NCBI GenBank assembly: GCA_020630735.1
Contig: JAHDIP010000005.1
Coordinates: 1-64,000 of the forward strand
DNA: 64,000 nucleotides
DNA from: Saprospiraceae bacterium
GTDB taxonomy: Bacteria > Bacteroidota > Bacteroidia > Chitinophagales > Saprospiraceae
Direction: 5' to 3'
In this document: positions 15,829-64,000 of the stretch, in pieces
How the letters are laid out: each line of letters starts with the position of its first letter
Position numbering within the stretch: position 1 is the first letter of the stretch
Made by a program: the position numbers and the translations under genes
Notes under the pieces: model-generated
What the model was told of the DNA's origin: nothing
Database searches by the model: none
Seen by the model: only the letters and a program-made list of their open reading frames with translations

Positions 15829-16703
15829 GAGATTATAATTTTGGTTAATAAAATGTGTTAACAAAAAAAAGGATATATTAAATAATTATGAGTTTCAATA
15901 CTCACAGATTAACTCCAATTTAGGTAACAAAAAACTGTTTAAAGTCATAAGAATATCTGTCTAAGCAAGCACATTAGCTTCTTAGATTAAGATGATTGTT
16001 AATTACTTTAAAGAAATGTTTTTATTATACCATAGACTAATGCGAATTAGTTTAAGGCACAAAACCTTATCTGTAAATTACAGATAAAGACCATTAAAAA
16101 AACATTGATATGTCTCAGAAAAAAAACGAAAGGTTACTATAATACTGGTAAGCATTTTTAAAGAGTAAAGTTCGTTTGTTCATGAGATTCAGTTTTTGTT
16201 TTTACAATTTCAAGAATAGTAGTTTGAATACTATTCAAAACAATGCTAGATACCTAATATGGATCTGCACTATGTGTTCGTTTTTGTTTTTGATTGTGTT
16301 GATATAAATACCTCAATTATCCTATTCAATAGGGGTGAAGGCTTTAAAATCAACTAGAAATTATTAGTAATTATTTATCACTAATAACCAAAGGGGGGAG
16401 ATGATAAAAAACTTGTGTTCTTATAACTTGTCGTTCATCATGTAACAAAAGTACAACAAAGTTAGCTGTCTTGCATACCCTTGAATCGGTAATTTTTATA
16501 TGAGTTTTTTTTTGCTTCTTTGATGGCTGAGTTTTTATATTAAAAAAATAAATGATAATATGGTATACATTTGGATGACTGAAAAGAAGAAAATTTTAGG
16601 TAATGATTTTATGCCTTTTTTAAATAGCTAATATTGTTTTAGTTATAGATTCATTCAAACGACTATTTGTTATATATTGACTTTGTATTGTTATTAAATG
16701 CAT
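15829..16703. other. AT-rich non-coding region
   Basis: About 875 bp without a credible gene. It holds a hairpin at 16067-16087 (9-bp stem TTATCTGTA/TACAGATAA, three-base loop), another at 16214-16236 (GAATAGTA/TACTATTC, seven-base loop) and long A and T tracts. It should contain the promoter and leader of the highly biased gene ending at 15828, but no clear TAnnTTTG element on the minus strand was found near the start. A long leader or a small RNA is possible. Confidence 0.45.
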
Positions 16704-37600: not shown

Positions 37601-40600
37601 TGGATTATTGCTCTCCTGTATTGAGCGACGAGACCATAAGAAAAGAAAAAACATATAGTAGTGACCTTGAAGTAGTTATTCCAAATATAGAACCAAGCAC
37701 AAGTACAACATTAAGACAGCCAATAGATGAAGATCTAAGATGGAATTTAAGTATCCGTGAAATACAAGGAGAAACAGCTTTTAATGCATGGATGGTATTG
37801 ACAACGCCAACTGGTGATGTCGTTCCTTGGAGAGTTAAGGATGGTACTACTAATATTAATCCTATAAATGGTGTTTATCCTTTAGGGGATATAGTAGGAG
37901 GGGCAATTAAAAATTACAAAATAGATGCTTCTTATAACTCATGTGGTTTAGATTCATTAAATGTTTTAATAGGTTGGGATTGTGACGGAATTCCTTCAAG
38001 CGACCAAGAAGCCATTCAAGGTGGTTTATTGTGTTCTTCTGATATGATTACGCTCTATGTTAATCCAATTGAAGGCTCGGTACAACAAGAGGTTACCATG
38101 CAACCTGGAGGTGCAGTAGAAGCCTGTACACCGCTTGATTACGAATTAGAAATTACCAATGTTGGTAATGCTGAATTATATGAGCCTGTTTTTGAGTTGT
38201 TTTTACCTTACACTTCTGGTTTAGAAATTCTTGCAGGTTCGGAGCAAGCTTGTTATCCTTGTGATGTGTCTGCACCTAACTATAATTATCCATTATTTAG
38301 TCCTACAGAAATAATTTATACTCCGCAAGGAATCAAATATATTTGGGATTTAGAAACACTAATAAGTGATTTTGATTGGTCTGCTCCAGATGGTTTTCCT
38401 GGTCAGTTAAGTACAGATCCTAATGATCGAAAAATAAAACTAAAATTCCAAGCAGAAACGAATTGTGATTTTATTGGGGGTGATTTTATTCGACTAAAAA
38501 CGAGAGGTCATACTTTTTGTGGATCAAAAACACAATCACTTTTACAAAATGCAAATCAAGTGGCTTTTCAAGATCAAGTTGTACCTTACCCAGCTGTAAT
38601 GTCACTTGATTTAGCAGGTAGTGTAATAGATGGTTGTTCCGAAAATAGTGTAGTAAATTTAGGTGGAAAAATTACGTTCTTTGGAGCATCTGATGGGCAA
38701 GATAGTTTGATCATTGCTTTGCCTCCAGCATTCCGATATTCCTCAGTTACTTTTAATCCAGCACATATTGCAGATCAAAATCCCGTTATTACTGTTTTTG
38801 GTCCATCTGCTTCGACACCTACAACATTCGAAGAATTGCGTTGGGGGATAAATGCAGGAATTAGTTCGCTCACAGCTATTCCATTTTCTTTGCAAGTAAC
38901 GATTGATCCTACGCAAGTTCTTTGTGAAGATGACAACATTATCTTCATGCGAACTGTTCGAACAGCTTCTGCAACTTGTGGTGGAACAACCTGTAATACA
39001 TTGATGCAAACTGGAGCCTTAGTAAAGGATTTAGAAATGGTGAAAAACGAATTTTCTTTATCTGATTTACAAATTTCTACTAACTGTGGAATGACTCGGA
39101 TTGATGTAGATAATATAACCATTAATAATATTGGACAAACAGATATTGTTTCAGATATTAATATAGATTTTTATTACGACGCAGACGATAGTGGTAGTTA
39201 TTCTACTGGAGATGGACTAGTAGGTAGTACAACATTTACAGAAGCTGTTCCTATAGGAGGAAATACTCAAATTGCTGCAGGTCCCTTCTTTGTAGCGGCT
39301 GGTCAATCTTGCAAAATCATTGCTGTAGCATCAGGTTGTAGTTGCGAAACAACTGAATTGAAAGCCAATAGTCTAAAAACAGTGAATGCTGGAAATGATC
39401 CAGAAGGTTGTAGTTCTGATCAGTTTCAATTAGGTTGTGGTGAAGATTTAACAGGTTCAGGTTTTGACTACAAATGGTTTGGATTAAATGGTGCTCCTCT
39501 AGACTCGTTAAGCTCCGACACCTCACCGAATCCTATTTTAAACTATACACACTATAATCCTGATCCTTTAGAAATTCAATATGTATTGGTAACAACGCAT
39601 CCTAGTGACGTTTGTATTAGTGTCGATACGGTTACTGTTAGACTGAAAGGCTTAGCAAAAACGATTGGTGATGAAAAGAAAGTTTGTAATGGAGAACAAA
39701 TTGGTTTAGATGGACCAACAGGTTTTTACGACTATTCATGGTCTCCTCCTAATGGATTAGTAGATATTCTTAATCCACTTACTTTAGCGACTGCTCCAGT
39801 TGGGGTTCAAAAATACTCTCTAACTTATAGAGATGATACGGCTTGCGAAACAGTATTCGAACAATCAATAAGGGGTGTTTCTTGCACAGATTTAGAGTTG
39901 GACAAACAAGTAAATTCACCAACAGGTGTAGTAGGAGATATCTTAACGTATGATATCTTTATCGTTAATCAAGGACCTAATGGCGCCTCTGGTATCCAAA
40001 TTAATGAGCAATTACCAACTCAATTAAGCTATTTAAGTTCAATTCCTACTGGAGAATATGATGCAGGCACAGGTATATGGACTATTCCCTCTGTAATGCT
40101 TCCTGATGATACTGCTAGATTAACAATCTACGCTGAAATTGTAAGCGGAGGTCCAATTTATAATGTCGCTGAAATCGGTCATATGAATGAAGGTGATTTA
40201 GATTCTACACCAGGAAATGATGATGAAACAGAAGATGATCAAGATGGTGTCTGTACATCAGCACCGATCAATTTGTTATGTCAGGAAATAAAAATATTAA
40301 GTATTCCAGATGAATTCAATTCATATCAATGGTTCTATGAAGGGGTTTTAATTACAAATGCTACCTCTTACGAAATCGAAATTTCTCAACCAGGAAATTA
40401 TTACTTAGAAGTAGATGGAGGATTGTGCCCTTATGGTAATTGTTGTCCTTTTGTGGTAGTAGAGGAACCTTGTGCAAATATCGGAAATTATGTTTGGGAG
40501 GATTATAATGGCGATGGTATTCAAGATGGAACAGAGAGTCCAATCGAAGGTGTAATGGTTGTTTTGTACGATGGTATTTTGGGTACACCATTAGATACCG

Positions 40601-43600
40601 TATTTACAGATGCTACTGGTATGTACTTGTTTGAAGAGATTCCTTCTGGCGATTATTCTATAGGTTTCGATGTTAGTACTAATACCGCAGGAGATGATTA
40701 TATCGGTACAGCTCAAAATACAGGAGATGGTACCAATGATAGTACAGTAGATCCAATCACTGGACAAACAAATGCATTTAACTTTGATGCAAGTACTGGC
40801 GATGACTTAACGCAAGATGCAGGCTTCCAACCTGTTGCCGAAATCGGTGATTTTGTTTGGTCTGATACTGATGGAAATGGTATCCAAGACTTTGGTGAAA
40901 CGGGTGTTGAAAACGTCATGGTAATATTATTTGATTCCAATACTGATTTGCCTTTAGATACAGTTTATACAGACTCCAATGGGCAATATACTTTCGAAGA
41001 TGTTCCCCCAGGTGACTACTTTTTAGAGTTTGATCCTTCAACAAGTCCAGGTCAAGATTATGTGTTTACTCAAAATGATTTAGGAACAGGCGGAGACGAT
41101 AGCGAAGCAGATCCATCAAATGGTCAATCTCCATCCTTTAATTTTGATCCGCATAATGGTGACGATTTAACCCATGATGCAGGTTTAGTTCCTGTAGCTG
41201 ATATTGGAAATACAGTATGGATAGATAGCGATGGCGATGGCAACCAAGATGGAGGAGAAGCTGGTCTAGCAGATGTAACTGTAATTTTGTTCGATAGTAA
41301 TTCGGGCTTACCGCTTGATACAGTAATGACAGATTCTAATGGAAATTATTTGTTTGAAAATATTCCAGCAGGCGATTATCACATTGGATTTGATCCTGAT
41401 ACTTCTGGAGGGAATTATGCTTTCTCTCCACAAGACAATACAGCCGACGCAAACGATAGTGATGCTGATCAGTTAACTGGATTGACTAGTACTTTTAGCT
41501 TCGATCCTACAAGGGGAGATTGTCTAACTAAAGATGCAGGGCTAATTCCTTGTGCAATTCAAATTGCCGCTAGTACAGTTGGTTGCCAAGATAATGGTTG
41601 TTCCTCCGAGACATCTGTTGGGCTAACGATTACTTGGAATACAACGATTACAGATGATATAAATGTAACGGTTGGAGGAATTACGAAAACAATAGATGTT
41701 TCTGGTACAGCAACATCTCCTTATGCAGTTCAATTTGATATTCCAGCTGATGGGAGTACAGGTCTATCTGCTATAGCAGAATTGGTTTCTGATCCTAATT
41801 GTAAAGACGTCTTTTTCTTTGATGCACCTCAACCTTGTGATTGTGCAAGCAATGCGATTACCATAGATGATTTTAGTACAGCTAATCCACCGTCTAGTTT
41901 AACAGGTACAGGTTCTGATTACCAAATTGCTTCGGGTAGTGGAATGTTACTAAACGAAAGAGATGTTGAAACTTTTTTGACTCAAACAGATGCCCCATTT
42001 AATGTCTTCACTATTGGTGACGCAAGTACAGGTATTTTTCATTATACTGAAGGAGGTGGTGTACGTGGTGGTTTTGTCCTTTCTTGGGATGGTCCAGATG
42101 GAACGGCTGCTTCATTTGACCCAACAGGTTTAGGTGGAGTAGATTTAACAGCTAGCGGATTGCTCGATGTATTTACTGTCGAGCTTCAATCAGATTTAGC
42201 GATGATTGTTACCTTAGAAATTTATACGGATGCAGGAAATTATTCTTCTTATGATTTATTAGTGACAGGAACAAACTCACCGCTTGGTTACGAATTTCCT
42301 TTTGCTGGATTTACAACAGAAGCTGGATCTGGAGCTGATTTTACAAATGTTGGAGCGATCAAGTTTGTTGTGAATACAACAGGTACTACGGGCGACTTAG
42401 ATATGCTAGTATACAACTTTGGAGCAACTTGTACCACTTGTGGTTCAAGTCCAATTGCATCAACAGATAAAGTAATTACACCAGTAGCAACAGCGATCAC
42501 TATTCCTGTACAAGCAAACGATATAGATCCAACTGGAAGTTCATTAACAACCGCAATTACTGCTTCTCCAGCAAATGGAATAGCTGTAGTAAATGGAACA
42601 GCAATTGATTATACTCCAAATCCAGGTTTTGTCGGAACAGATTGTATCTACTACTCTGTAACAAACGCTGCAGGTGGTACAGACGAAGCAAAAGTGACCG
42701 TTATTGTAAGTAGTTGTGGTACACCAATAGTAATAGATGTTTTTGATATTGGTAGCCCTTATACAGCACTTGCCAATGTTGGTTCAATGTATAATGAAGA
42801 TACAGGTGCAAACATTGTTGGTGGTGAGCGTGATGTCGAAACATTTATGACAGTCTCTGATCCAAATTTCAACTTATTCACTTATGGTGACCCAACAGAA
42901 GCTTGTTTTAATTATATCGAAGGTGGTCCAGTTCGTGGTGGTTTTACGATCGTTTATGATGGTAGCGATAGCGATGCATCCACAATAGATTACACAGGTC
43001 TTGGTGGTTTAGATATGACAAGTGGAGGCAATGATGCATTAGATATCTCTTTACAAGCAGATAATACAGTAGATATTGTGGTAGAAATATTTACCGATGC
43101 TTCTAATTCTTCTACCTATATTATCCCTGTATCTGGAAGTACGAGTACTCAAGACTTTTCTATCCCTTACGGATTATTTGCAACAAGTCTTGGTAGTGGC
43201 GCAAATTTTTCAAATATAGGAGCAATTACTTTACGAGTAGAAACTACAACAACCGATGGGAATTTAGATATGAAACTCGTCTGTTTATTAACAGGTTGTA
43301 GCAACGACAATGATTATGATATGGATGGTATCGTCGATACTATTGATCCTGACGATGATAATGATGGAAAGCCAGATTGGTTAGAAGCTGGTTGTGCTTC
43401 TGCTGCCATTTTCGGAACGGCTGCTTGTCCAGATCCAACAGCTGATGACAATAATGATGGTGTTCCAAATTATCAAGACAATACTTTCTGTGCCCTGAAT
43501 GCTTTTGGTGTTTGTGAAAATTATGATTTAGACAATGATGGTACTCCGAACTTCTTCGACCCTGACTCTGATAATGATGGTTTGGCTGATTGGTTTGAAG

Positions 43601-46600
43601 CTGGCAATTCAGAACCAACAGATATTGATTCTGATGGCGATGGCATAGATGATGCACATGATATTGATTTAGGTGGAGCTGGTCTAAATGCCAATCCGAC
43701 GAATTCTGATTCTGATTTAAAAGCAAACTGTAACGAATTAGATTCTGACAATAACTGTATTCCTGATTGGGCTGATGCTGGCAATCCAGCACCAACAGGA
43801 ATGGATACAGATAGCGATGGCATAGATGATGCCTATGATGTCGATCAAGGTGGTGTCGGTCTAAATAGTTCACCTAATGATTTTGATGGTGATGGCATTT
43901 TTGACTACGAAGATGAAGACGATGACAATGACAATATTCCAGATTGGGAGGAAACGGGTTTTGATAATTTAGCCAATTTGGATGTTGATCAAGATGGAAT
44001 CGATAATTCATTTGATGCAGACTTAGGGGCTACTTGTTCAAGTGAAGCAGCCTTAGATACCGATGGTGATGGATCACCAGATTTTCAAGACGAAGACAGT
44101 GATGGCGATGGCATTTTGGATGATGACGAATGTAACACTACGCCTTGTGAAGATAAAGATATGGATGGTATTCCAGATTTTCAAGATGAAGATAGCGACG
44201 ATGACTGCATCAATGATGTGGTAGAATGCCCAACAGGGGCACCATGCCCTGATACTGATGGTGATATGGTGCCAGATTATTTGGACGAAGATGCAGATGG
44301 AGATGGTGTAGTTGATCACGAAGAATGCCCAAATTGTGATCCATGTCCTGATACTGATGGCGATGGTATTCCAGATTTTTTAGATAACTATTGTAACCTT
44401 GTTTTAGAAACGCCAAAGCTAACGACAAATAGTCCGATTTGCCAAAATGATAGCGTTTACATGTTTGTTCAGCAAGTGTATAGTACTTATATTTTAAATC
44501 CTCCATTTGCTACTGTAAGTTATACTTGGATAAATGGAGTAGGAGATACGATAGCTGTTACTAGCAATGGATTTATTAAAGTCCACACAGAAGATGCGGA
44601 TGCGATTTCTCCACTTTCTGTTCAAGTAACTGTAAACGATTGTTTGTCACCATTCTCTGAACCTGCTGATTTTGAAATCATTGAGCGTGAAACAGTGACA
44701 GCATCTAATACGGGACCAATCTGTGCAACAGACGAAGTACAATTATTCGCTAGCACAATAGATTTTGCCGATTATGAATGGACAGATTTGACGACGAATC
44801 AAATTGTGTCTACAGATCAAAATCCAATACTTTACAATGTAAGCGCAACTACAACTTATCAAGTTAAAATTCAAGTAGATGGTTGTACGCCAGAACAAGC
44901 AGAAACTATAGTGACAATAGGTTCGCCAATAACAGTGAATGCCGATGCTAATTATAACCCGAATTCTAATTGCGCACCAACTGATCTTAAATTAGCGGCG
45001 AATATTACTGGAAGTTCTGCAGGATTGATTTTTGCATGGACAGGACCAAATGGCTATTCGTCTAACGTTCAAGATCCAATTATTCCAAGTGCGACAAGTC
45101 AAGCAAATGGTTCTTATACCGTAGTTGTTACAGATGCGAATGGCTGTACTGCTTCGAGCAGTCTTCAAGTAACAAATGTTGTTGATGCTATTTTAGACCA
45201 ACCTCTTATCATCAGCACCTTACCAGAATGTAATGGTGGTACGATGACTTTATCTATTGAAGAATACGATGGAACAGATGTGGAATACATTTGGTCTATA
45301 CCTTCAACAGTAAATGTAAGTGGTTTGTCAACCAACCAGATTATCATAAGTCCTCTTGACGATACCATTCACGAAGGAAATTATCAAGTAAAAGTTTCTG
45401 TAGATGGTTGTGAAAGTGATGCGGCTCCTTATGCACTAAATATTTTAGATGATCCTAGTGCCAATATAGGGAATCTTACTGGAAATCTTTGTCATGGAGA
45501 TTTATTAGAATTCCGTGGAGATTCAGATACAGGAAATACATTTGAATGGACAGGACCAAATGACTTTGTTTCAAATTTACAATACCCAATCATTTACAAT
45601 ATCGACGAAACATATAATGGTCAATACACTTTAGTTGTAACCAATCCAAGTGGTTGTTCAGCTACTGAGTCAGTATTTATCAATACTATTTTACCAGAAT
45701 CAGAAATACCAACTATCGCTGTCAATTCTCCAAATTGTGAAGGAGATGATGTCGTATTGACAACAAGTGCAATAGGCACAAATTATGAATGGGTTGGACC
45801 ATTAGGTTCAAGCGCAACAACCTTAGCTTTACCTGGATTAACTACTGCTTCGGGCACAACCACACTTGATGATGCGAATGCCGCTTACTTATCGGGTAGC
45901 TGGCAAGTACAAGTAACAGACGCCAATGGATGTACAAGTATTTCTGATCCAATTAGTGTTGCGATTAACCAAGTACCCGTTGCTATTGCTTCAAACGATG
46001 GCCCAGTATGTGAAGGAAGTACTGTCAAAGTTTTTGCTTCTCCAGTTGAAAACGCAACCTATCAATGGTACGATGGCGATCCTAATGGTTCACCTACAGG
46101 AGTACTTATTTCTACAGATCAAGAAGTGGTTTTAAATAACTTAAGCCCTGGAACTTACGATTACTATTTACGATTATTAAACGAAGGTTGTGAATCTGCT
46201 TCAGCTATAACGACAGTTATCATTAATAATGAACCAACGATAGCACCAACAGCAAGTTATACGCTTAATCCAGATTGCACACCAGCTGACTTAAGTTTGA
46301 TCGGAAATCCTACTGGAACAGCACCATATACATTCATTTGGACAGGACCTTCGGGCTTTACATCAACTGATCAAAACCCAACTATTGCGAATGCATCAAC
46401 AAACAACAATGGTTCTTACCAAGTTATGATGACGGATGCAAATGGTTGTGGAAGTATGGGAACAGTTGAAGTCTCTACGATTACAAATACGATTCCTGAA
46501 CCTGTGATTTCAAGTACTGGACCTGCTTGTACAGGCGATCAGATTACACTTTCAATTGATGAATATACGGGATCAAATGTAACTTATGTATGGACAACCC

Positions 46601-49600
46601 CAGCAGGAACCAGTTCTAATATTTCAGGTATGAATACCAATGAAATTATTATTGATCCTGTTTTTGGAAGTACGCATAATGGAGATTATTCTGTTAGTGT
46701 TACAGCTGATGGTTGTACACTTAGCTCCGATACATATACTGTCAATGTATTTGGAATGCCTACTTTGTCGCTATCAACAACAACAGGTTTACTTTGCGAA
46801 GGAGAAGAAATTTCATTGAACTCAGGTGCAGCAGGCGCAACTAGTTATGAATGGACAGGACCAAATGGGTTTACTTCAAATGCTGTTAATCCAGTTATCT
46901 CCAATATAACGGTTGCAAATAATGGAACATACACATTAACTGTTGCAAACTTTAATGGTTGTACGACTCAAGAAAGTATAGATGTAAGTTCTATTGTTTT
47001 ACAACCAATTACACCAAGCGTTTCTGCTACAACAACTGCTTGTGCTGATGGAGTAATCAATTTGGCTATCCAAGAACAATATACAGGATCTATCATTACC
47101 TATAATTGGACAAATGGTGCAGGAACATCCATTGGTAATACATCAAGTATTTCTATACCTGCTAATGATATAAATGCTATTTCACCTTATCGTGTTCGTG
47201 TTACTGTTGATGGGTGTACGACTAATCTTTCAGATGCAGTAGATGTAGAAGTAACATTATTACCAGAAGCGATTGCCACAAATGCTGGTTCGATTTGTCC
47301 AGGAGATGCTGCGCAATTATTTGCAAATCCAATTGCAGGAGCATCTTATGAATGGCGTATTGCAGGCTCAGCTGGAATAATCTCTACTGATCAAAATCCT
47401 ATCATTAATGGACTTACTGCTAATCAGTCTTATGAATTGACAGTCTTAGTCAATGGATGTGTTTCTGATCCATTGTCTACAACTACAATTATGGTCAACG
47501 AAGAACCTAGTATTGCGCCAAATGCAAACTATGTATTAAATACTGATTGTTCTCCTACTAGTTTAACTTTAACGGCAAATCCAACTCTTGGAACAGGCAC
47601 AATAACAAATTATCAATGGACTGGACCAAACGGTTTTACGTCAACATTAGAAAATCCAGTTTTACCGAATGCAACAAGTTCCAATAATGGTTCATATGCC
47701 TTGACGGTTGAAGATGATAATGGTTGTTCGGCTACAGCAACAGTAGAAGTATCAAATATTACTGATATTGTTTCTATGCCTGTCATTAGTAGTACAGGGC
47801 CAGCTTGTGATGGCGAAACAATTATTTTAACTATTCCTACTTATGATGGAGCAATAGTTGATTATGCATGGACTACTCCTGCTGGAACAACATTAAATAT
47901 CACAGGTCAAAATACAAACGAAATTACGATTAGCCCAGTTGATCAAGCTATGCATAACGGAAGCTATCAAGTACAAGTGACCGTTGATGGTTGTGTGCTT
48001 CTTTCAGATACTTATGATATCTTAAGCTATACTTCACCTACGGCTAGTCCTATTGCGACGACTAGCAATATTTGCGAAGGCGGAGTGTTAGAATTAACAG
48101 CAAATCCGACTGGAACAAATCCTCTAACCTACGATTGGGTAGGACCAAATGGGTTTACATCTTCGCTAGAAAATCCTGTATTAACAAATGTAAGCAATGT
48201 AAACAATGGTCAATATACCTTAACCTTGACGAGTGCAAGTGGTTGTACTATCGTAGAAAGTATATTAGTTACAAATATTTTAGAAACACCAGAAATGCCT
48301 GCAATTGTTGTGAACTCACCGATCTGTGAAGGTGACGATATTGTATTGACTACTAGTGGAATAGGTGTGCAGTATGAATGGGTTGGACCATTAGGAGCAA
48401 GTGCAAGCACACTTACTTTACCAGGCTTAACAACAGCAGTAGGAACCACTACATTATCTTCAACGAACACATCCTACTTAAGTGGTGATTGGCAAGTTCA
48501 AGTGACAGATGAGAATGGCTGTGTGAGTATGTCTAATCCAATTTCAATTACTATAGAAGAAGAGCCTATAGCTATTGCTACTAATGATAGTCCACTCTGT
48601 ATTGGAAATGATATTACCTTGTTTGCTTCGCCAGTAAGTAATGCAAATTATTATTGGTATGATGCTGATCCTACTACAGGAGGTGTATTGATTTCGACAC
48701 AACAAAATCCTGTAATGATTAATTTAGCAGCAGGTACACACGACTACTTCTTAGAAGTTGTACGCAATGGTTGTTCTTCTACATTGAGTTCTACTACAGT
48801 AGAAATTAATGCGGAGTCTACGATTAGTCCTTCATCTTCTTATACGTTGAATACAGATTGTACGCCATCCGATTTAACTCTATTTGCAAACTCATCAGGT
48901 GCCACGCCATTTACATATAATTGGACTGGACCAAATGGCTTTTTATCTACAGAAGAAAATCCAACGATCGCAAATGCCACACCAATTAACAATGGATCAT
49001 ATACTTTAACAATAATAGATGCTAATGATTGTAGTGAAATAGAAACAGTAGAAGTTGCTGGCATTAACGCTACAGTTGCTCAACCAATTATTACTTCCTC
49101 TGGTCCTGCTTGTTTAGGAGAGTCTATCGTCTTAACAGTACCTCAATATACAGGCGCATCAGTTGATTATATTTGGACAACACCTGCGGGGACTAGTACA
49201 AATATCACAGGTCAAAATACGAATGAAATTATTATAAGTCCTGTAAACGAGACAACTCACGAAGGAAGCTATAGTGTAGAAATTACAGTCGATGGTTGTG
49301 TTATTAATTCTGATACTTATATTGTAGATGTTTTTACACAACCTACGGTAACTCCCTCTGCTACGGCAACACCTTTATGTGAAGGAGATGTTCTAGAATT
49401 ATTTGCTAATGGATCTGGTGTTACTAGCTATAACTGGACTGGACCAAATGGTTTTACATCTAATGCTGCTGATCCTATTCTTGCAAACACTAGCATGAAT
49501 GATAATGGTATTTATACATTAACAGTATCAAATGCATCTGGATGTTATTATAGCGAAAGTGTAATCGTTTCCAATATTCAGACAACGCCTGAAACGCCAA

Positions 49601-52600
49601 CGGTTTCTGCAAATAGCCCACTTTGTTCTGACGACTTCATCGAATTAGGTATACAAGAACAATATAGTGGTGCAGTAAATTATAATTGGACAAATGGAAA
49701 CGGAAACACCATTAGTACTTCTAGTGTGGTCTCCATAAGTGCCTCAAATTCCAATGCGATTTCTCCTTACCGAGTTGAAGTGACAGTAAATGGTTGTACA
49801 TCTGAATTGTCTGAACCAGTAGATGTTGTGGTAAACGCATTGCCTATTGCAGTAGCAACCAATGCGGGTTCTATTTGCCCTGGTGAAGATGCACAATTGT
49901 TTGCTAATCCGATAAGTGGTGCAACTTATGAGTGGACAGAAGCAGGCTCTTCTGCTATTATTTCTACTGCGCAAAATCCAGTTATCAACGCTTTGATGAC
50001 TGACGCAACATACGAACTAACCGTAATAGTTGGAGATTGTATATCTAGTACTACTTCGACTACTACAGTTGTTGTAAACAGCCTTCCAGTAATGTCGCCG
50101 ACAGCGAATTATGTATTAAATACAGATTGTTCGCCAGCCGATTTGACCTTAATTTCAAATATCACAACAGGAAGTGCTAGTGTCGTTAATTACGAATGGA
50201 CAGGACCAAACGGTTTTATATCGTCAATAGCGAATCCAACTATTCCAAATGTAACTGCAGATTACAATGGTTCTTATACTTTAATCGTGACAACGGATAA
50301 TAACTGTACAGTTGAGGAAAGTGTAGAAGTAACCAACATTAGTAATCAAGTTGCTCAACCAATTATTGCTAGTACAGGACCAGCTTGTGAAGGTGAAACC
50401 ATTGTATTGACGATACCTGCTTACTCAGGTTCATCTGTAGATTATACTTGGGCAACACCAGCAGGCACGACAACAAGTATTGCAGGATTGAATACGAATG
50501 AAATAGTTATCAGTCCAGTTGATCAAGTGATACATGATGGTATCTATTCTGTGGAAATAACAGTAGATGGTTGTGTACTTAATTCAGATACTTATGAAAT
50601 TCAAAGTTTCAATATGCCTACGGCGGCACCATCAGCAACTTCGACTGCAATATGTGATGGAGAAGTACTTGAGTTACTTGCAAATTCTACAGGAGTAAGT
50701 CCTTTGTCTTATGAATGGGTTGGTCCAAATGGTTTTGTATCAACACTAGAAAACCCAATCCTAACAGATGTAACGAATGCCAATAATGGCCAATATACTT
50801 TAACGACATCGAGCGTAAGTGGATGTTCTGTTGTAGAAAGCGTTTTTGTAAATAATATTTTAGAAACACCAGAAGTTCCAACAATTGCAGTAAATTCTCC
50901 AATATGTCAAGGCGAAGATTTAATCTTTACAACAAGTGGAACGGGGGTGAAATATGAATGGGTTGGTCCTTTGGGGGCAAGTAATGGCACCTTATTATTA
51001 CCTGGCTTAACAACGGCGAATGGTCTTACTACATTAGATGCTAATAACGATGCTTACTTAAGTGGTGATTGGCAAGTGCAAGTGACAGACGCAAATGGCT
51101 GTGTGAGTTTATCGAACTCAATCTCAATTACCATAGAACCTGTACCTGTTGCTATTGCATCAAATGATAGCCCTTTATGTATTGGCAATGATGTTACCTT
51201 ATCTGCATCGCCAGTAAGTGGTGCTAATTACTATTGGTATGATGCTGATCCTACTACAGGAGGGACTTTAGTTTCGACACAGCAAAATCCTGTGATGCTA
51301 AATTTAGGAGCAGGCTCCCATGATTATTACTTAGAAGTAGTTAAGAATGGATGTGCTTCTATAGTTGATGTAACAACTATAGAAATCAATGCGGAGTCGA
51401 TGATTAGTCCTTCATCGTCTTATACCCTGAATACGGATTGTTCGCCTTCTGATTTGACCTTATTTGCTAATCCAATAGGAGCGGCTCCATTTACATATAC
51501 TTGGACTGGACCTAATGGTTTTACATCAGCAGATGAAAATCCAATGATAGCAGATGCAACGCCATTGAATAATGGTTCCTATACTTTAATGATTACTGAT
51601 GCAAATGATTGTAATGAAACAGCAACAGTAGAAGTCGCTGGAATAACAGCGACCGTTTCGCAACCAATCATTGCAGCTTCAGGTCCTGCTTGTAATGGCG
51701 AAGCGATTATCTTAAGTGTACCTCAATATTCAGGTTCATCTATTGATTATGTTTGGACAACTCCTGCGGGAACAAGTATCAATATTACAGGCGAAAATAC
51801 AAATGAACTAATCATCAGTCCAGTAGACGAAGTAGTGCATGAAGGAAGTTATAGTGTAGAAATTACAGTGGATGGATGTGTCATTAATTCTGATATTTAT
51901 GTAGCAGACATTTTTGCACAACCAACAATAATACCTACTGTTGCTACAACGGCATTATGTGAAGGAGATATTCTAGAATTATTCGCCAATGCTACAGGAG
52001 CGGGCGCTTATTCTTGGACAGGTCCAAATGGATTTACATCGAATGCCGCTGATCCTGTAATTGCAAACACAAGTTTAAATGATAATGGAATTTATACATT
52101 GACTGTTACGAATGAAAGTGGTTGTTCTATAACAGAAAGTGTTACCGTCTCGACAATTCAACCAACGCCAATCATGCCTACAATAAGTGCAGAAAGTCCT
52201 TTATGTGCTGATGGAATGATAGAGTTAGGAATGCAAGAACAGTATAATGGTACAGTACTATACAATTGGACAAATGGAATTGGGAACACTATTAGTACAT
52301 CCAATTCAGTAAACTTGCCAGCTTCGCATCCAGGTGCCGTTTCACCTTACCGAGTGGAAGTGTTAGTGAATGGTTGTCCTTCTAGTTTGTCGGTTCCAGT
52401 AGAAGTAATTGTAAACGACCTTCCTGAAGCAATAGCGACCAATGGCGGTGCTATTTGCCCAGGCGAATCGGCACAGTTATTTGCAAATCCAATTGCTGGT
52501 GCATCTTATGAATGGACAGAAGCGGGATCTTCAACAGTAATTTCTACTGCTCAAAATCCTATGATTGCAAGCCTTGATGTTACAACAACTTATGAATTGA

Positions 52601-55600
52601 CTGTAAGTGTTGGAGAATGTATTTCTAATCCAACAGCTACAACTACAATCGACGTAAATAAGATTCCAACGGTTGAACCACAAGCTGCATATGTGTTAAA
52701 TACAGATTGCTCACCTTCTGATTTGACATTGCAAGCTAATGTGGAAACAGGTATTAATAATATTGTAACTTACGAATGGATAGGACCAAACGGTTTTACT
52801 TCTTCAATTGCGAATCCGACCATTCCAAACGTAAATGCAGCTTACAATGGTTCGTATACTTTAGTAGTAACAACAGATAATAATTGTACAGTAGAAAATA
52901 GTATTGAAGTAACGAATATTAGTAATCAAGTGGCACAACCAATTATTACAAGTACAGGTCCAGCTTGTGAGGGTGATATTGTTACCTTGACTATTCCTGA
53001 ATACACTGGTTCAATTGTAGACTATACATGGACAACGCCAGCAGGAACTACAACTAATATCAATGGTTTAAATACCAATGAGATAATTATCAGTCCAGTA
53101 GATGCGGCTACGCACGAAGGTACATATAGTGTCCAAGTTTCAGTAGATGGCTGTGTGCTAAGTTCTGATACCTATAATGTTGCTGTTTACGAAATGCCTA
53201 CTATAGCTCCTATGGCAACGACTAATGATCTTTGTGAAGGAGAAGTACTAGAATTTTTTGCTAATACAACAAGTACAACAACCTATTCTTGGACAGGACC
53301 AAATGGCTTTACATCGAATGCTCAAAATCCTCAGATAGCGAATACTTCAGTTGATGCGAATGGTACGTATACTTTAGTTGCAACAAGCATTAGTGGTTGT
53401 GAAGTAATAGCAAGTGTAGAAGTGGACAATATAATTGCGACACCGATTACACCAACCATAACGAGTAATGATCCAATTTGTGATGATGAGTTCATTCAGT
53501 TGGCAATACAGCAACAATATACAGGATCAGTAATTGCTTACAATTGGATAAATGGAGCGGGCACATCTATTGGTACAACGAACAGTATTTTGATGGCTAC
53601 CACAAATCCGAATGCTATTTCGCCTTATCGAGTAGAAGTGACAGTAGATGGTTGTACGACACAATTGTCTCCTGCAGCAGAAGTGACGGTCAACAACTTA
53701 CCTGATGCTATTGCTACTAACAGTGGTGCGATTTGTCCTGGTGAAGTGGCACAGTTGTTTGCAAATCCAATTGCGGGGGCTGTGTATGAATGGACAGAAC
53801 AGGGTTCCTCCGCAGTTATTTCTACTGCGCAAAGTCCAATCGTTATTCCTAACCAAACAACAACTTATGTCTTAATGGTTGATGTAAATGGATGTATTTC
53901 TAATCCATTAAGTACAACAACAGTTACGGTAAATAATCCTCCAGTTATAGTACCGAATTATAGTTATACACCAAATACAGATTGTGCCTCTGCTGATTTA
54001 ATCCTTAATTCGAATGTGCTAAATAATGGGAATGTTGGTATTAGTACCTTTAATTGGACTGGACCAAATGGCTTTTCATCTACACAATCAAATCCAATAA
54101 TTAATGGAGCCAGTACTGCGTATAATGGTTCGTATACCTTAACCGTTACTGATCAAAATGGCTGTGTAGATAGCGAAACGTTTGTTGTAAATGCTATAAC
54201 CAATATTGTTAATCAACCAACAATAACAAGCACTGGGCCAACTTGTGAAGGCGGCGAAATTATCTTAACCGTTCCAACTTACACTGGAACATCAGTGGAA
54301 TATACATGGACAACTCCTAACGGAACAACAGTTGATATAGCAGGCTTAAATTCTAATCAAATAGTAATTAGCCCTGTCAAAGCAACTGAACACATTGGTA
54401 ATTATGTGTTAACTGTTACTGTTGATGGTTGTGAACTTAGCTCGAATGTTTATGAAGTAACAGTATTAGAAGCCCCAACTGCTACCCCAACTGCCACTGG
54501 AGGTGATTTATGTGAAGGAGCTGTATTAGCTTTCCAAGCTAATGCGGCAGGAGTAGCGCCATTAACTTTCGAATGGCAAGGGCCAAATGGTTTTTCATCA
54601 ACTCAACAAAATCCAAACTTGAGTGATATCACTACTGCTAATAATGGAGAATATGAATTGACGGTAACAAGTGCAAGTGGTTGTGTTTATACCTCGACGG
54701 TCGATGTCAATAATATTTTAACAACTCCAGATGCACCTTCTATAGCAAGTGATCTTGATATTTGTGAAGGAGAAAATATAGTTTTAGCAACGAGTGCAGG
54801 TGGTACTTTATACGAATGGATTGGACCTTTAGGAGCTAGTGATTCTACATTGACCTTACCTGGTTTGACGACGGATACAGGAACAACTACAATCTCTGGA
54901 ACAAGCGAAACGTATTTGGCTGGTCAATGGCAAGTACAAGTGACGAATGCAAATGGTTGTGTTTCTATTTCTGAACCTATTATAATAGATATCAATACAA
55001 TACCAGAGGCACAAGCATTTAATAGTGGCAATATTTGTCCTGGCGAAAGTGTACAGTTAAGTGCAACAACAATAGATGATGCATCTTACGAGTGGAATAT
55101 TGTTGGTGATCCAACAGTTATTTCTACCGATGCTAATCCTACAATGTATAATGTAACGACAACAACAACCTTTGAATTAACAGTTATTTCGGATGGTTGT
55201 ATTTCTTCACCAACTGCTTTGACAACGGTTTTGGTTAATGAAGAACCAACCGTATCACCTACTGCAAATTATACCTTGAATACAGATTGTGCACCATCAA
55301 ATCTTAATCTATTTTCTAACCTTACATTTGGAGCTAGTTCGACTGTAAGTTATGAATGGGAAGGTCCAAATGGTTTTACAGCATCTGTTGCAAACCCAAC
55401 AATACCAAATGCAACAGAAGATAACAATGGAGTATATATACTGACGGTTTCGGATGAAAATGGCTGTTCTTCTAGTAATGCTGTTGAGGTTATTGGTATT
55501 CTAAATCAGGTTGCTCAACCTATTATTTCTAGCAGTGGTCCAGCTTGTGAAGGAGAAATAATTGTCTTAACAATTCCAGAATATTCAGGTTCTTCGATAG

Positions 55601-58600
55601 ATTATACATGGAATGTTCCATCTAATTTCAACATCACTGGATTGAATACACATGAAATTATCATTACTCCTGTTGATGCTGCTACACATGAAGGAACGTA
55701 CTCAGTAACGGTAACTGTTGACGGTTGTGTTCTTACATCTGATACATATAGTGTTGAAGTTTTTGACCAACCTTCAATTACACCAAGTGTTTCTTCTGCT
55801 TCTTTATGTGAAGGAGAAGAACTTGCCTTATTTTCTAATGCATTTAATGTTACAGACTTTTTCTGGACAGGACCGAATGGTTTTGTTTCTAATGCCGAAA
55901 ATGTAGTTATAGATAATATAACAGTTGCTAATAATGGAACCTATTCTTTAACAGTGACTAGCGAAAGCGGTTGTACTGTTACCGAAAGTATTATTGTAAA
56001 TACAATTACCATTACACCAGCTACACCTACCATTACAGCAGATGCCACAACTTGTGAAGATGGAATGATTAACTTAAGTATTCAAGAACAATATGTTGGT
56101 TCATCAATTGAATATAATTGGGTGAATGGAAATGGTTTTACTATTGGAACTGAAAGTACAGTTACGTTAGCAGCAAATGATCTGCAAGCGGTTTCTCCTT
56201 TTAGTTTGGAGGTTACTATTGATGGCTGTTTAACAGAAATATCAGAAGGCGTTACTGTTGAAGTGAATGATTTACCGATTGCTGCTGCATCAAATAATGG
56301 TTCTATTTGTGAAGGCGAAGATGTTCAACTTTATGGAGGAACTGTTTTAGATGGATCGTATGAATGGCGAATTGTTGGGAGTCCAACGGTTATTTCTACT
56401 GATCAAAACCCAATGATGTTTAATGTCAATAATACTACGGTCTTTGAGTTAACAGTTATTTCAAATGGATGTATTTCTGATCCAGTAGCCACAACAACGG
56501 TTGTAGTGAACGAGCCACCAACTGTAACTCCTGATCAAGGGTATACTGTAAATTCTGATTGTTCCCCATCCAATTTATCTTTACAAGCAAATGTTATGAT
56601 CGGTTCGGGACAAATAATTGAGTATCTTTGGACAGGGCCAAATGGTTATATATCTACAATAGAAAATCCAACGATTACCAATGCAACTTCAACTAATAAT
56701 GGATCTTATTCTTTAGCAGTTGTTGATGAAAATGGATGTACTGCCACTGCTAGTATTGAAGTGACTGCTATTACTGATCAAATAGCTCAACCAATAATTG
56801 CTAGCTCAGGTCCAACTTGTGAAGGCGATCAAATATTACTAAGTGTTCCTGAATATGCAGGTTCGTCTGTGGATTATGTTTGGAATTTACCAAGCTCTAT
56901 AAATGTAGCTGGCTTAAATACAAACGAAGTAATATTAAGTCCAGTATCTCAAAGTATTCACGAAGGGAATTATAGTGTACAAGTTACAGTAGATGGTTGT
57001 GTATTAGATTCTGATGTTTACAATTTAGAAATTTTTGCCCAACCAACAATTGACCTTTCTGTGTCGACACAATCTTTATGTGAAGGAGAAGTATTAGCTC
57101 TAAATGCAATAGTGACAAATACAGATTCTTATTTATGGGAAGGACCAAATGGATTTACTTCTATTGCTGCAAATCCAATTTTACCCAATGTTTCAGTTGC
57201 CAATAATGGCACCTATACATTGACCGTAACAAGCGTAAGTGGTTGTACAAATACAGGAAGTGTTGTGGTTAATAATATTAGCGCTACTCCTGTTGAGCCA
57301 ATTGTTATAAATGCAGTAGAAGTCTGTGAAAATGAAACAATTGAGTTAGCGATTCTACAATCATATACTGGAGATGCTGTCGGATATTTCTGGTACAATA
57401 GTGTGGGGACTTTGGTAGGTAATGCGAATGTACTTTCTATTGATGCTACTGATCAGAATGCTATAGCTCCGTATTATGTAGAAGTGATTGTAGATGGATG
57501 TATATCTCCAACGTCTCAATTAGTTGATATCGAAGTGAATGAGTTGCCTCAGGCTACTGCGACAAATGATGGACCGATTTGTTCTAACGAAGCGGTACAA
57601 TTATTTGGAGGAACAATAACAGGAGTAGAATACTATTGGTATGCCGCTGAACCTTCGGCTTCGTCACCACCAGCAGTAGCATTTTCTACAGAGCAGAATC
57701 CAGTTATTTACAATTTAGGTGAAGGTATACATAATTTCTATTTAGAAATTGTAACAGAAGATGGATGTATTTCTAACCCTGCAGTTATGACAACAGTAGA
57801 AGTACAGTCATTACCAGTGATAAGTGGTATCACAAGTACTGGAACCTATTGCGAAGAAACTACGGTTACTTTATCGGCTATCAATACTGTACCAGTTCAA
57901 GGAAATATTACCTACACTTGGTCTGGACCAAATGGATTTAATTATGTAGCAACGACAACTTCTTCAGGGCCATTTACCATTGCTCTTCCAAACGTAAATG
58001 AGACAAATGAAGGAACTTATACTTTAGTATTAGAGACAGAAAATGGCTGTATTTCTGCACCACAATCAATTAATCTTTCTTTAGACGGAGCACCAAGTAC
58101 ACCCGCTTTAGTTGTTGAAAATGAAGCACTTTGTGAAGGCGAGCAAATAGAATTAAACAGTACCGCATACACTGGTGGTTTCGTAGAATACGAATGGTTC
58201 TTTGATGATGGAAGTTCTGTAATATCTGTTGGAACTACTAATACACCAACATTCTTTTTACTAAATGCAACTCCTGCGAATGAAGGTATTTATACGGTAG
58301 TTGTTACAGTAGAAGGATGTACTTCTCCAATTTCAAATGCACAATACGTTAGTATCTTTGGAGCGGTATCTGCACCTGAAGCGTCGAATTCAACATCAGA
58401 CCAAATACCTGCCTGTGAAGGAGAAAATGTACAATTGAACTTACCTGTTATCGCTGGAGCAACTTACCAATGGTATGGGCCAAATGGTTTTGATTCGACG
58501 ATACCTAATCCTGTGATTGATAATGTCAGTTTAAATGATGTTGGCTCTTACTATGCTGTAGTAGAAGTGAATGGTTGTGCGTCAGTTATTTCAACATCTA

Positions 58601-60383: not shown

Positions 60384-60457
60384 GGAATGTGATTTGTATA
60401 TATTATAGAATAATTCTATTTGAATCGAGTTTTCTCCCAAACTCTAAAATTAGGAAA

Positions 60458-61378
60458 ATGAAAAAAATATTTCAACTAGGCATCCTTTTATTTTTTGCCA
60501 TTTCTATCAATGCACAGCATGATACACACTATTCGATGTTCATGTTCAATAAACTAACGCTCAATCCAGCTTATGCAGGGAGCAAAGAAGTTATGACTTT
60601 TACAGGGCATTATAGAAATCAATGGAGCGGTATTGATGGTGCACCCCAAACGTTTACATTTGGTGCGCATACACCATTTTTTAAAAAGCGCTGTGGAGCT
60701 GGTATTTCGATTATAGCAGATAAAATCGGTATGGTAAATACTTACTATATTGATTTGTCTTATGCATATCGAATAAAATTAGATAAGAAAAAAACTCTAA
60801 GCATTGGACTTACTGGTCAAATGGAATACGGGCGTACTGACTGGACACAATCTGATCCGCTTGACTTGGGCGATAGTATGGTACAAGGTTCTGCTGTTTC
60901 GAAACTCAATTCTAATTTTGGTGTAGGTGTCTATTATCAAGAACCAAGTTTCTATGTGGGAGCATCTGTACCAAGAGTTTTCAGAACAACGGTTTATAGT
61001 GATCTTCCTTTTGAAGATATTAGCTTACGAGATTTACGTAGTTATTATTTAATGGGAGGATTTGTTGCTCGCTTAAGTAAAAACTTAAAACTACAACCTG
61101 GAGTCTTATTAACGATTAATCCTAATGCACCATTAGACATTGATTTGAATACAAGTTTAGTGTTTATGGATCGCCTATGGTTTGGCTTATCTTATCGACT
61201 ACAAGATTCGTTTGATGCGATCATTCAGTTCCAAATAAATACACAACTTAAAGCTGCACTAGCTGTTGATCTTACCTTGTCGGAATTAAACTATTTTTCG
61301 CCAGGTAGTTTCGAATTGATGCTTGAGTATACATTACAGTACAATGGCTTAAGACATAATAATATTCGTTATTTCTAA
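60458..61378 (+). CDS. PorP/SprF-family outer-membrane protein
   Basis: The 306-residue protein has a signal peptide (cleavage near SINAQ) and the family opening HDTHYSMFMFNKLTLNPAYAGSKEVMTFTGHYRNQW, followed by strand-rich repeats typical of an outer-membrane barrel (GISIIADKIGMVNTYYIDLSYAYRI, LSIGLTGQMEYGRTDW). Family members such as SprF are needed to export or anchor a giant CHU_C-type protein encoded just upstream. I start at the ATG at 60458, which has TAGGAAA before it; the longer frame begins at 60389, but its 23 extra codons would precede the signal peptide. It lies between the giant gene and an OmpA/PD40 gene, the usual order of such cassettes. Confidence 0.92.
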   Translation: MKKIFQLGILLFFAISINAQHDTHYSMFMFNKLTLNPAYAGSKEVMTFTGHYRNQWSGIDGAPQTFTFGAHTPFFKKRCGAGISIIADKIGMVNTYYIDLSYAYRIKLDKKKTLSIGLTGQMEYGRTDWTQSDPLDLGDSMVQGSAVSKLNSNFGVGVYYQEPSFYVGASVPRVFRTTVYSDLPFEDISLRDLRSYYLMGGFVARLSKNLKLQPGVLLTINPNAPLDIDLNTSLVFMDRLWFGLSYRLQDSFDAIIQFQINTQLKAALAVDLTLSELNYFSPGSFELMLEYTLQYNGLRHNNIRYF

Positions 61379-61462
61379 AATTATAAGAAAACCGAAGTTG
61401 ATTTTGGAGAAATGTAAATTTTAAAAACATGAAGTTATGGGAGAGCATAGCGGAAAAATGGG

Positions 61463-61480
61463 TGCAGAAATATTTCTGCA
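61463..61480. promoter_or_regulatory. Perfect 18-bp palindrome before the OmpA gene
   Basis: TGCAGAAATATTTCTGCA is self-complementary and followed by TTTT, about 28 bases before the ATG at 61509. It could be an attenuator between the PorP/SprF and OmpA genes or an operator. Confidence 0.5.
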
Positions 61481-61508
61481 TTTTAAGTCGCAGAAAAATT
61501 TTAAGCAC

Positions 61509-64000
61509 ATGAAAAAAGTAATCACCTTATTAATCATACTACCTCTGTTATTTAGTCAGTTGGTATACGCTCAAGGGAAAGTAAGCAAAGATGAACTGAA
61601 TAAAATGGAGAAAGCTGCTAAGAAATTATTGAAAAATAATAAGCGCAGTATGAGCAAGAAAAAGGCAGATCGATTATACCGAGATTTAGGCTATAAAGCA
61701 TCTGTAGATATGTATCGAAATCTTAAAAGTGAAGAGATACAACGTACAGAAGTATTAGCACGATTAGCCAATAGTTTTCGTTTAAATCACGAAACGGAGA
61801 ATGCTGAATATTGGTATGCAAAATTCATAGACAAAACAAAAGATCCATTGGATTATTTGCATTATGCTCAGATGCTTCAAAGCAATGGGAAATGCGATGC
61901 GGCAACTAAATGGTATAAAAAATATATGGATACAGCAGATGCCGATCATAAATCAAAGCGAGATTTTATAAAAGATTGTAACGACCTAGAAAGTTTTACC
62001 AACCATACCAATGTTGAAATATTTAATGTAGAAGAGCTTAATACAAGTCACCTTGATTTTAGTCCAATACCTTACAAAAATGGGGTAGTGTTTACTTCTA
62101 CACGTGGTCGTGATGGGATGATGGAAACGAAAGATGGTTGGACAAATGATAACTTCTCTGATCTGTTTTTTGCAGAAATGGGTAAGGCAGGGAAATTTGA
62201 AAAAATACGCCCACTAAATGGCGATATAAATGCTAATTATCATGATGGTTTAGCTACCTTCAATGAGGGAGAAACCATTATGTTTTTTACTAGGAATAAC
62301 CGAACAGGAAAAAGTAAAAAAGGTCTCATTGATTTGAAAATATATATGGCACATTTGCAAGAAGATGGCTATTGGTCTGAAGCTGAAGAATTACCATTTA
62401 ATGATGATAATTTTACTTCTTGTCATCCTACACTTTCAGCCGATGGAAGACGTTTGTATTTCGCTTCAAATCGTGAAGGAGGCTATGGAGGATTAGATCT
62501 CTATGTGGCAGAATACAAAGCAGGTGTCTGGTCAGAACCGTATAATTTAGGACCTGAAGTGAATACTTCTGGCAATGAATTGTTCCCATTTATTACTGAA
62601 GATGATGTATTATATTTTTCGTCAAATGGTCATAAAGGTTTAGGAGGATTAGATATGTACAAAGTCGTTCAGGCTGATGAGAATAAAGAACTTTCTTGGG
62701 ATATTAGAGAGCATCTTGGTCGTCCATTTAATTCGTTAAAAGACGATTTCGGGTTTTATATTAACAAAGAAAAAACGGCAGGATACTTCTCGTCAAGTCG
62801 ATGGAAACTGGATGGTGATGATGATATTTATTCTTGGAAAAAAACGCATGATATTGAGCTGCCAATCACTCGTTCTATCTGTGTATATGAAAACGGTACA
62901 AGTAATCGAGTTGCTGATGCTAAAGTTACAATAGCGGAAATAAACGGAACGTCTAATACGTCAATTTCTGATGATTTAGTATTGACATTAAAACCTGTGA
63001 ACGACCAAAAAGATGAATTTGTTTTAGGTCTTTCTGGTAACAAAAAGAATGCTGCTCAAAGCAAAAGCTCTATCCATTTGACAGGTAATAGTGGTGATTT
63101 CGATTATGCCTTTTTGCCGAATAGAACGTACAATATTGTAGTTGAAAAAAATGGTTATATCACATACAATCAAGTGATGACTTCAGAAGAATTAGCCAAG
63201 CTAAATGAATTTTGTTTACCTATCGGAAAAGAAAAATGTTTACTCCTTGAAGGTGTCGTCAAAAATAGAGATACAAAAGTCATCATGCCTTCAGCTAAAA
63301 TAAAAATCTTAAATAAGTGTAGCAACGAAGAAACAGAATTAACCTTGGATAATAATGCAGCTTTCGAACTTTGTTTAGATTGCTCTTGTGAGTATCGAAT
63401 TCGGGCGATAGAAAGTGGTTTTGATGATGATTACGAATTTGTCTCAACGATTAATAAAGATTGTGCAAATGGAGAAACTATCTCTGTTTTATTGGAGTTA
63501 AATAAGCCAAGACCTATTTCGTCTACAGCGAATACAGCGACACCAAGTTATCCAACGACTACTTATCCAACACCAAGTTCCAATTCAGTACCAGTTGTAA
63601 CATATCAGCCAGTAACTACGTATCAGCCTGTTACAACATACCAACCCGTCACTACTTATGTCCCTGCTGGGTCAGTTGCACATTCATCAGTGCCAACGGG
63701 AAATCTAAATAGTCATTTCTTAGGATCTTCAACAGCTCGTTTTGGCGAAGGGCAAGTGATTACACTAAAAGATGTTTACTACGATTTTGATAAATATTTT
63801 ATTCGCAATGATGCTAGTCTTGATTTGGATAGAGTAGTAGCGTTGATGAATGAATATCCTGATATGGAAATTTCTTTAGAGTCGCATACAGATAGTCGAG
63901 GTTCTGATGATTATAACAGGCAACTATCTCAAAATAGAGCAGAGGAAGCTAGAAAATACATCATCAAAAGAGGAATACAAGCACATCGTATAACAGCTAG
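61509..64000 (+). CDS. OmpA-family protein with TPR-like and PD40 repeats (cut by the window end)
   Basis: The visible 830 residues start with a signal peptide (cleavage near VYAQ). A helical TPR-like part (about 20-165) is followed by PD40/WD40-like propeller repeats (LDFSPIPYKNGVVFTSTRG; SCHPTLSADGRRLYFASNREGGYGGLDLYV; LFPFITEDDVLYFSSNGHKGLGGLDMY), two strand-rich domains (about 455-560 and 575-660), a Thr/Pro/Ser-rich linker with TYQPVT repeats, and an OmpA-like peptidoglycan-binding domain (YYDFDKYFIRNDA, LESHTDSRGSDDYNRQLSQNRAEEARKYI) still open at 64000. This layout matches the OmpA protein next to PorP/SprF in T9SS cassettes (PorE-like). It would link the outer-membrane machinery to the cell wall. 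The 3' end is missing. Confidence 0.93.
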   Translation, partial: MKKVITLLIILPLLFSQLVYAQGKVSKDELNKMEKAAKKLLKNNKRSMSKKKADRLYRDLGYKASVDMYRNLKSEEIQRTEVLARLANSFRLNHETENAEYWYAKFIDKTKDPLDYLHYAQMLQSNGKCDAATKWYKKYMDTADADHKSKRDFIKDCNDLESFTNHTNVEIFNVEELNTSHLDFSPIPYKNGVVFTSTRGRDGMMETKDGWTNDNFSDLFFAEMGKAGKFEKIRPLNGDINANYHDGLATFNEGETIMFFTRNNRTGKSKKGLIDLKIYMAHLQEDGYWSEAEELPFNDDNFTSCHPTLSADGRRLYFASNREGGYGGLDLYVAEYKAGVWSEPYNLGPEVNTSGNELFPFITEDDVLYFSSNGHKGLGGLDMYKVVQADENKELSWDIREHLGRPFNSLKDDFGFYINKEKTAGYFSSSRWKLDGDDDIYSWKKTHDIELPITRSICVYENGTSNRVADAKVTIAEINGTSNTSISDDLVLTLKPVNDQKDEFVLGLSGNKKNAAQSKSSIHLTGNSGDFDYAFLPNRTYNIVVEKNGYITYNQVMTSEELAKLNEFCLPIGKEKCLLLEGVVKNRDTKVIMPSAKIKILNKCSNEETELTLDNNAAFELCLDCSCEYRIRAIESGFDDDYEFVSTINKDCANGETISVLLELNKPRPISSTANTATPSYPTTTYPTPSSNSVPVVTYQPVTTYQPVTTYQPVTTYVPAGSVAHSSVPTGNLNSHFLGSSTARFGEGQVITLKDVYYDFDKYFIRNDASLDLDRVVALMNEYPDMEISLESHTDSRGSDDYNRQLSQNRAEEARKYIIKRGIQAHRITA
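63600..63653 (+). repeat. Three tandem TYQPVT repeats in the OmpA linker
   Basis: Three 18-base units (63600, 63618, 63636) each encode TYQPVT, with a fourth degenerate TYVPAG after them. The codons differ between units (CAG/CAA, CCA/CCT/CCC), so the peptide repeat is conserved while the DNA has drifted. It is a flexible linker before the peptidoglycan-binding domain. Confidence 0.8.

Follow-up and report, generated by a model that had tools for sequence, protein, structure and literature searches.

A ten-module super-repeat in a giant Ig-domain gene of a Saprospiraceae bacterium that probably encodes a fibre of the GhpA type

Background

The window, a stretch of 64,000 nucleotides of a Saprospiraceae genome, contains a giant open reading frame of 8,515 residues (34699..60246, forward strand) in which a rod of Ig-like modules repeats every ten modules. 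The homology of its rod and C-terminal base to GhpA, the grappling-hook filament, together with its gene neighbours, makes it probable that the product is a long extracellular fibre of this kind, secreted by the type IX system, anchored by a PorP-like carrier and used for contact. GhpA is the grappling hook protein A of Aureispira sp. CCB-QB1, for which structures are available (PDB 9flp, 9fly and others; Lien et al. 2024, as cited in PMC13319060), and it assembles as a heptamer (PMC13319060). The first-pass annotation had called the locus a giant surface protein gene; the GhpA-type identity was missed.

Results and discussion

Organization of the giant ORF

The domains follow one another, from the N- to the C-terminus, as a segment resembling a signal peptide, some 1,700 residues that match no Pfam family, DUF11, three SdrD_B domains, Big_9, an acidic DxDxDG stretch, 59 Ig-like modules, a second Big_9 and CHU_C/TIGR04131. 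The N-terminal head (residues 1-1734; 34699..39900, forward strand) gave no matches in a Pfam search at E values up to 1. At approximately 41500-43700 (forward strand), past the SdrD_B domains and ahead of the acidic stretch, two segments resemble each other, NERDVETFLTQTDAPFNVFTIGD and GERDVETFMTVSDPNFNLFTYGD; each is about 160 residues long and belongs to no clear family. The 59 cysteine-paired modules, m0-m58 (44401..59685, forward), were delimited at their paired cysteines, the C1-C2 spacing being 53-67 residues and the linkers 26-32 residues, and modules m1-m50 form ten five-module units, U1-U10 (44683..57540, forward), in the register a-b-c-d-e. The last 456 residues or so (58876..60246, forward) consist of base repeats and the sorting domain, a type B T9SS domain of the CHU_C/TIGR04131 family (59992..60237, forward).

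Two other ORFs in the window were noted. One of 1,589 residues (2713-7482, forward) combines an ABC ATPase domain with two matches to UvrA DNA-binding and exceeds the standard length of UvrA, while another of 1,344 residues (11830-15864, reverse) has HYR, dockerin-type and weak Por_Secre_tail matches.

The repeat period

The motifs GSICPGD, GSICPGE and GAICPGE occur at 47287, 49867 and 52447, that is, 2580 bp apart twice. SPLCIGND occurs at 48589 and 51169, also 2580 bp apart, and the motif GPVCEGS, which corresponds to it earlier in the array, is found at 46000, an offset of 2589 bp. Exactly these spacings (2580, 2580, 2580 and 2589 bp) had been claimed in the first-pass annotation and are borne out at equivalent codons, although its coordinates were displaced by 6-12 bases. 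Over the whole array, the best residue lag was 860 (29% identity), the runner-up lags giving 20% or less. The identity between modules m1-m50 was 23.0% at lag 1, 46.7% at lag 5, 54.9% at lag 10, 48.0% at lag 15 and 48.9% at lag 20, and all lags that are not a multiple of five gave 22-28%. The hierarchy that had been proposed, a module of about 86 residues, a five-module unit of about 430 residues and a ten-module unit of 860 residues, was correct. The annotation had also named equality of the lag-5 and lag-10 identities as evidence against a ten-module order; the lag-10 value was higher both for m1-m50 and, at 64.8% against 46.5%, for U2-U6 taken alone, while in U7-U10 the two were the same. 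The excess at lag 10 had a p value of 0.008 by shuffling of the unit order, a test of modest power with only ten units.

At a lag of 860 residues the array matches itself without gaps from residue ~4130 to ~5305 (about 1,175 codons). The span originally assigned to the repeat, 47281-55000, was in part too generous: the ten-module order extends through U1-U6 and three modules into U7, up to approximately 53190, and is lost beyond, where U7 is a hybrid.

The basis of this order is an alternation between two versions of the unit, A and B. The C1-C2 spacing at position a is 53-54 residues in the A version and 58-60 in the B version, and at position e it is 65 (eA) as against 57-58 (eB). Read from these spacings, U1-U6 (44683..52416, forward) have the series A B A B A B, which constitutes the ten-module higher-order repeat. 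In U7 (52417..53694, forward) the modules a-b-c are of the A type and d-e of the B type, and the strict ten-module order stops here; U9 and U10 have the same composition and U8 is an A unit. Such hybrids match what recombination between A and B units would be expected to leave behind.

Age of the ten-module block

In the last 860 codons of the ungapped run, the two copies have 72% amino acid identity and 73% nucleotide identity, and for this ten-module block the proportion of synonymous differences, pS, is 0.57, with dS ~1.1 and dN ~0.20. The lag-860 identity rises stepwise, as located by a block-permutation change-point test, near 47.8 kb in the protein (p 0.008) and near 48.1 kb in the DNA (p 0.004). 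The position of the step places the younger copy at approximately m14-m23 (48034..50613, forward; breakpoint approximate), repeated as m24-m33 (50614..53193, forward, also approximate), with 72-73% amino acid identity and without indels. U3U4 and U5U6 are 70% identical, and a tree built from ten-module units grouped them with a bootstrap of 100 against the units of other genera. This tree and the step in identity support a ten-module copy particular to the window lineage. The block may stem from gene conversion or from an old duplication on which purifying selection has acted, which look alike in these data.

The genome is a draft assembly of 6.6 Mb in 434 contigs, and the contigs of relatives stop within similar arrays, two points that would speak for an assembly artefact. 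The longest exact repeat in the array, at lag 2580, is only 32 nt and for this reason an assembly artefact is unlikely; about 27% of the bases differ between the copies and five other genomes, independently assembled, have the identical module order, all of which makes the artefact extremely improbable.

The ten-module order in other genomes

Relatives of known name include Saprospiraceae, Phaeodactylibacter, Saprospira and Aureispira, from which the bacterium is taken to belong to the Saprospirales. The 860-residue unit was searched against 298 genomes of the family and gave full-length tandem matches in several genera. When the modules of other genomes were typed with profiles built from the window modules, the order aA-b-c-d-eA-aB-b-c-d-eB was found to be exact in five genomes of four other genera (G083, G239, G268, G301 and G089), at about 50% identity. 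G268 and G301, which belong to one genus, have orthologous units: the first units of the two genomes pair with each other (88%), as do the second units (86%), whereas the units within one gene are only about 50% alike. Module trees unite positions a, b, c and both versions of e across genera, with weaker support for d. From the pairings in the ten-module-unit tree, the order predates the split of these genera, or was passed among them by exchange, and the last copy in the window is younger. The tandem duplication of 860 codons proposed in the first-pass annotation is supported as far as a lineage-specific copy goes, but it did not create the ten-module order; a simple recent duplication as the origin of the order was rejected, the order being common to other genera.

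Related fibres elsewhere in the family have other periods: two modules (G015), three (G142, G263 and L039), three or six (L016), five (G003 and G009) and seven (G005). A module of a longer array hardly ever has its best partner next to it, although a few short arrays of 12-17 modules behave differently. A nine-module array at another locus (L146; G130:C40:36001-56000) has a three-module period at about 91% identity and is apparently a recent block copy.

Duplication of several domains at once is the usual mode of growth (PMC1553488). In the literature on giant bacterial adhesins with higher-order repeats, searched with most subscription journals outside its reach, the pattern was not found described for type IX fibres. 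As far as that literature shows, three aspects are new: 1) the ten-module order conserved across genera, 2) the range of periods in GhpA-related fibres and 3) a rod and base of the GhpA type with another head.

Homology to GhpA

A five-module unit was predicted from an alignment of the ten units of the window, with a mean pLDDT of 86 and a pTM of 0.49, the latter making the arrangement between modules in the model unreliable. When this unit was compared with the PDB using Foldseek and VIA-align, the best eight solved structures were all GhpA fragments, with E values down to 1e-26, 34% identity and a best Z score of 22.2, against 12.7 for the best entry other than GhpA; GhpA is represented in the PDB by 56 chains across 8 entries, in line with a heptamer. 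A phmmer comparison of the rod and of the C-terminal region with GhpA gave about 1980 bits each. The last ~450 residues of the ORF align collinearly to the final residues of GhpA, the C-terminal portion being 38% identical, and among the ORFs compared in its own genome the window ORF was the best C-terminal match to GhpA.

An ORF of 5,898 residues in another genome of the family (G142, locus L149) is taken to be ghpA itself, since the last 2,999 residues of the ORF cover GhpA 2900-5898 over its full length. In GhpA the rod repeats every three modules, or 249 residues. The GhpA gene (L149:931-18627, reverse strand) contains an exact internal repeat of 875 bp, likely a site of copy-number change.

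The window protein and GhpA have in common a homologous cysteine-paired Ig rod, a homologous base of 450 residues with a type B sorting domain, a comparable size, and the same PorP and PorE-like neighbours. They differ in the N-terminal head, in the rod period (three modules, 249 residues, in GhpA; five or ten modules in the window) and in length (5,898 as against 8,515 residues). The upstream gene is also different, OmpA at the ghpA locus and glycerol-3-phosphate dehydrogenase in the window, and positional orthology by way of the upstream gene was rejected on this ground.

The head of the GhpA hook (residues 1-1150) had no similarity to the window head, and a search of the window genome with it at E 1e-10 found none; among the 298 family genomes it occurs in only 8. 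Because the hook head was searched for and not found, the window protein is not classed as a grappling-hook protein, but is proposed to work like one in its rod, base and anchoring. Over 2,188 residues the window head region shares 51% identity with its ortholog in G089, a genome of another genus that carries the ten-module order as well, with its matching C-terminus on a different contig. Since both are shared, head and rod seem to travel together in G089. At a further locus (L075; G015:C236:1-20000), a GhpA-like head (34% identity) is joined to a rod with a strict two-module period, in an ORF that exceeds the stretch retrieved.

These comparisons bear on another reading, in which the protein is an adhesin acting as a single chain, its Ig rod a mere spacer without a GhpA-like bundle and its likeness to GhpA a matter of a widely shared stock of modules. 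Related modules do occur in many genes across the family and the head is not that of GhpA. However, the homology and collinearity with GhpA extend beyond the modules into the C-terminal base, and the gene cassette matches the ghpA locus, so that this reading is considered possible but rather unlikely.

Secretion, anchoring and gene neighbours

The giant ORF is followed by a gene for an outer-membrane carrier of the PorP/SprF family (60389..61378, forward), which scores 240 bits against TIGR03519 (cut-off 90.6) and is 41% identical to the PorP adjacent to ghpA, and by a gene for a PorE-like OmpA protein of 902 residues (61437..64000, forward) that extends beyond the window and is 37% identical to its counterpart at the ghpA locus. 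The same succession of giant gene, PorP/SprF and PorE-like OmpA was found in G142 and G263. The sorting domain scores 99.2 bits with Pfam and 63.8 bits with NCBIfam (cut-off 35). The genome carries SprA (SprA_N), GldM, 24 PorP proteins and about 50 type B sorting domains above the cut-off. The SprB/SprF and PG1035/PorP/PorE type B systems likewise pair a CHU_C/TIGR04131 sorting domain with a neighbouring gene for PorP/SprF (and a PorE-like protein), and type B cargo remains bound to its PorP-like carrier (PMC9143113; PMC12635249).

A type B cargo adjoining a PorP/SprF gene is also the arrangement of SprB and SprF, and the protein might therefore be a mobile gliding adhesin like SprB, which its PorP/SprF partner would move along the track used for gliding. 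GldM is present in the genome, as is a GldJ-like protein that scores under the curated cut-off. Normal attachment of SprF to the track requires a twin-cysteine C-terminal tail (PMC12635249), whereas the tail of the window carrier ends in LQYNGLRHNNIRYF, with no cysteine there and hence no twin-cysteine tail. A gliding adhesin is accordingly a distinctly unlikely identification, and the lack of the tail that ties SprF to the track makes a fixed fibre more likely than a travelling one.

The type VI genes TssC and TssD are present on contig C225 of the genome, and their presence alone is no proof of predation (ixotrophy); contact-dependent antagonism is possible given these genes. They adjoin a ClpB-like AAA ATPase (L189; G000 C225:1-5886).

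A model of the fibre

If the protein is a fibre of the GhpA kind, the chain would be exported through the type IX translocon and its C-terminus held by the dedicated PorP, with the PorE-like protein as a brace. Its tip would differ from that of GhpA and its rod would be longer. Like that of GhpA, the rod would probably form a parallel bundle, and it would hold the head at least ~200 nm off the cell, where the head would contact a surface or another cell. The rod length, roughly 200 nm, assumes about 3.7 nm per module, a ratio taken from PMC13319060 (49 domains in ~180 nm) for a different domain type. By analogy with GhpA, the window protein may form a heptamer. Counting against a firmer assignment, Ig-rich type B proteins are numerous in the family and homology of the rod leaves its role unfixed.

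The rod is proposed to have grown by the copying of blocks, of five or ten modules here and of two, three, five or seven in the relatives. Block copying would leave neighbours only about 23% alike and preserve the character of each position, and the 2580-bp period would be its trace.

Whether the period has a structural meaning is a separate matter from the identity of the protein. There is about an even chance that the super-repeat is purely a by-product of unequal recombination combined with selection against alike neighbours, which would tend to misfold, so that the period itself is structurally meaningless; this is compatible with a GhpA-type fibre. It is consistent with the commonness of several-domain duplications (PMC1553488), with the varied periods of the relatives (2, 3, 5, 7 and 10) and with the rarity, in longer arrays, of best partners at lag 1. 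On the other hand, conservation across genera (~50% identity) extends to the a-e order and the types of module, and no indel interrupts the 860-codon lag over ~1,175 codons despite a dS of ~1.1. The super-repeat could instead be a structural register, in which module types alternate so that side-by-side contacts in the bundle recur with a period of five or ten modules, or of three in GhpA, and exchange of block period and head would let the fibres of Saprospirales vary in length, stiffness and target. This proposal is speculative and judged unlikely.

The analogy for a register is titin, the classic super-repeat, whose super-repeats match the thick filament (PMC10665226). The titin A-band resembles the window array in having Ig-type repeats of repeats whose equivalent positions resemble one another more than neighbouring modules do, but the window array is bacterial, consists of Ig modules only, without FnIII, and its super-repeat is not known to match a partner lattice; no homology is claimed. 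The 7,651-residue adhesin of Mobiluncus mulieris, with 51 Ig-like domains (PMC10619420), is, by its description, likewise a giant bacterial Ig-domain adhesin, from another bacterium and with other cross-linking (ester, isopeptide, thioester and disulfide bonds are reported).

Conclusions

The repeat protein probably belongs to the family of GhpA fibres, which serve a predatory representative of the Saprospirales. The findings suggest that fibres of the GhpA type occur more widely than the hook itself, a common rod and base carrying exchangeable heads. Ordered super-repeats shared across genera offer a testable case for how giant bacterial Ig rods grow and also a test of whether a repeat period has structural meaning.
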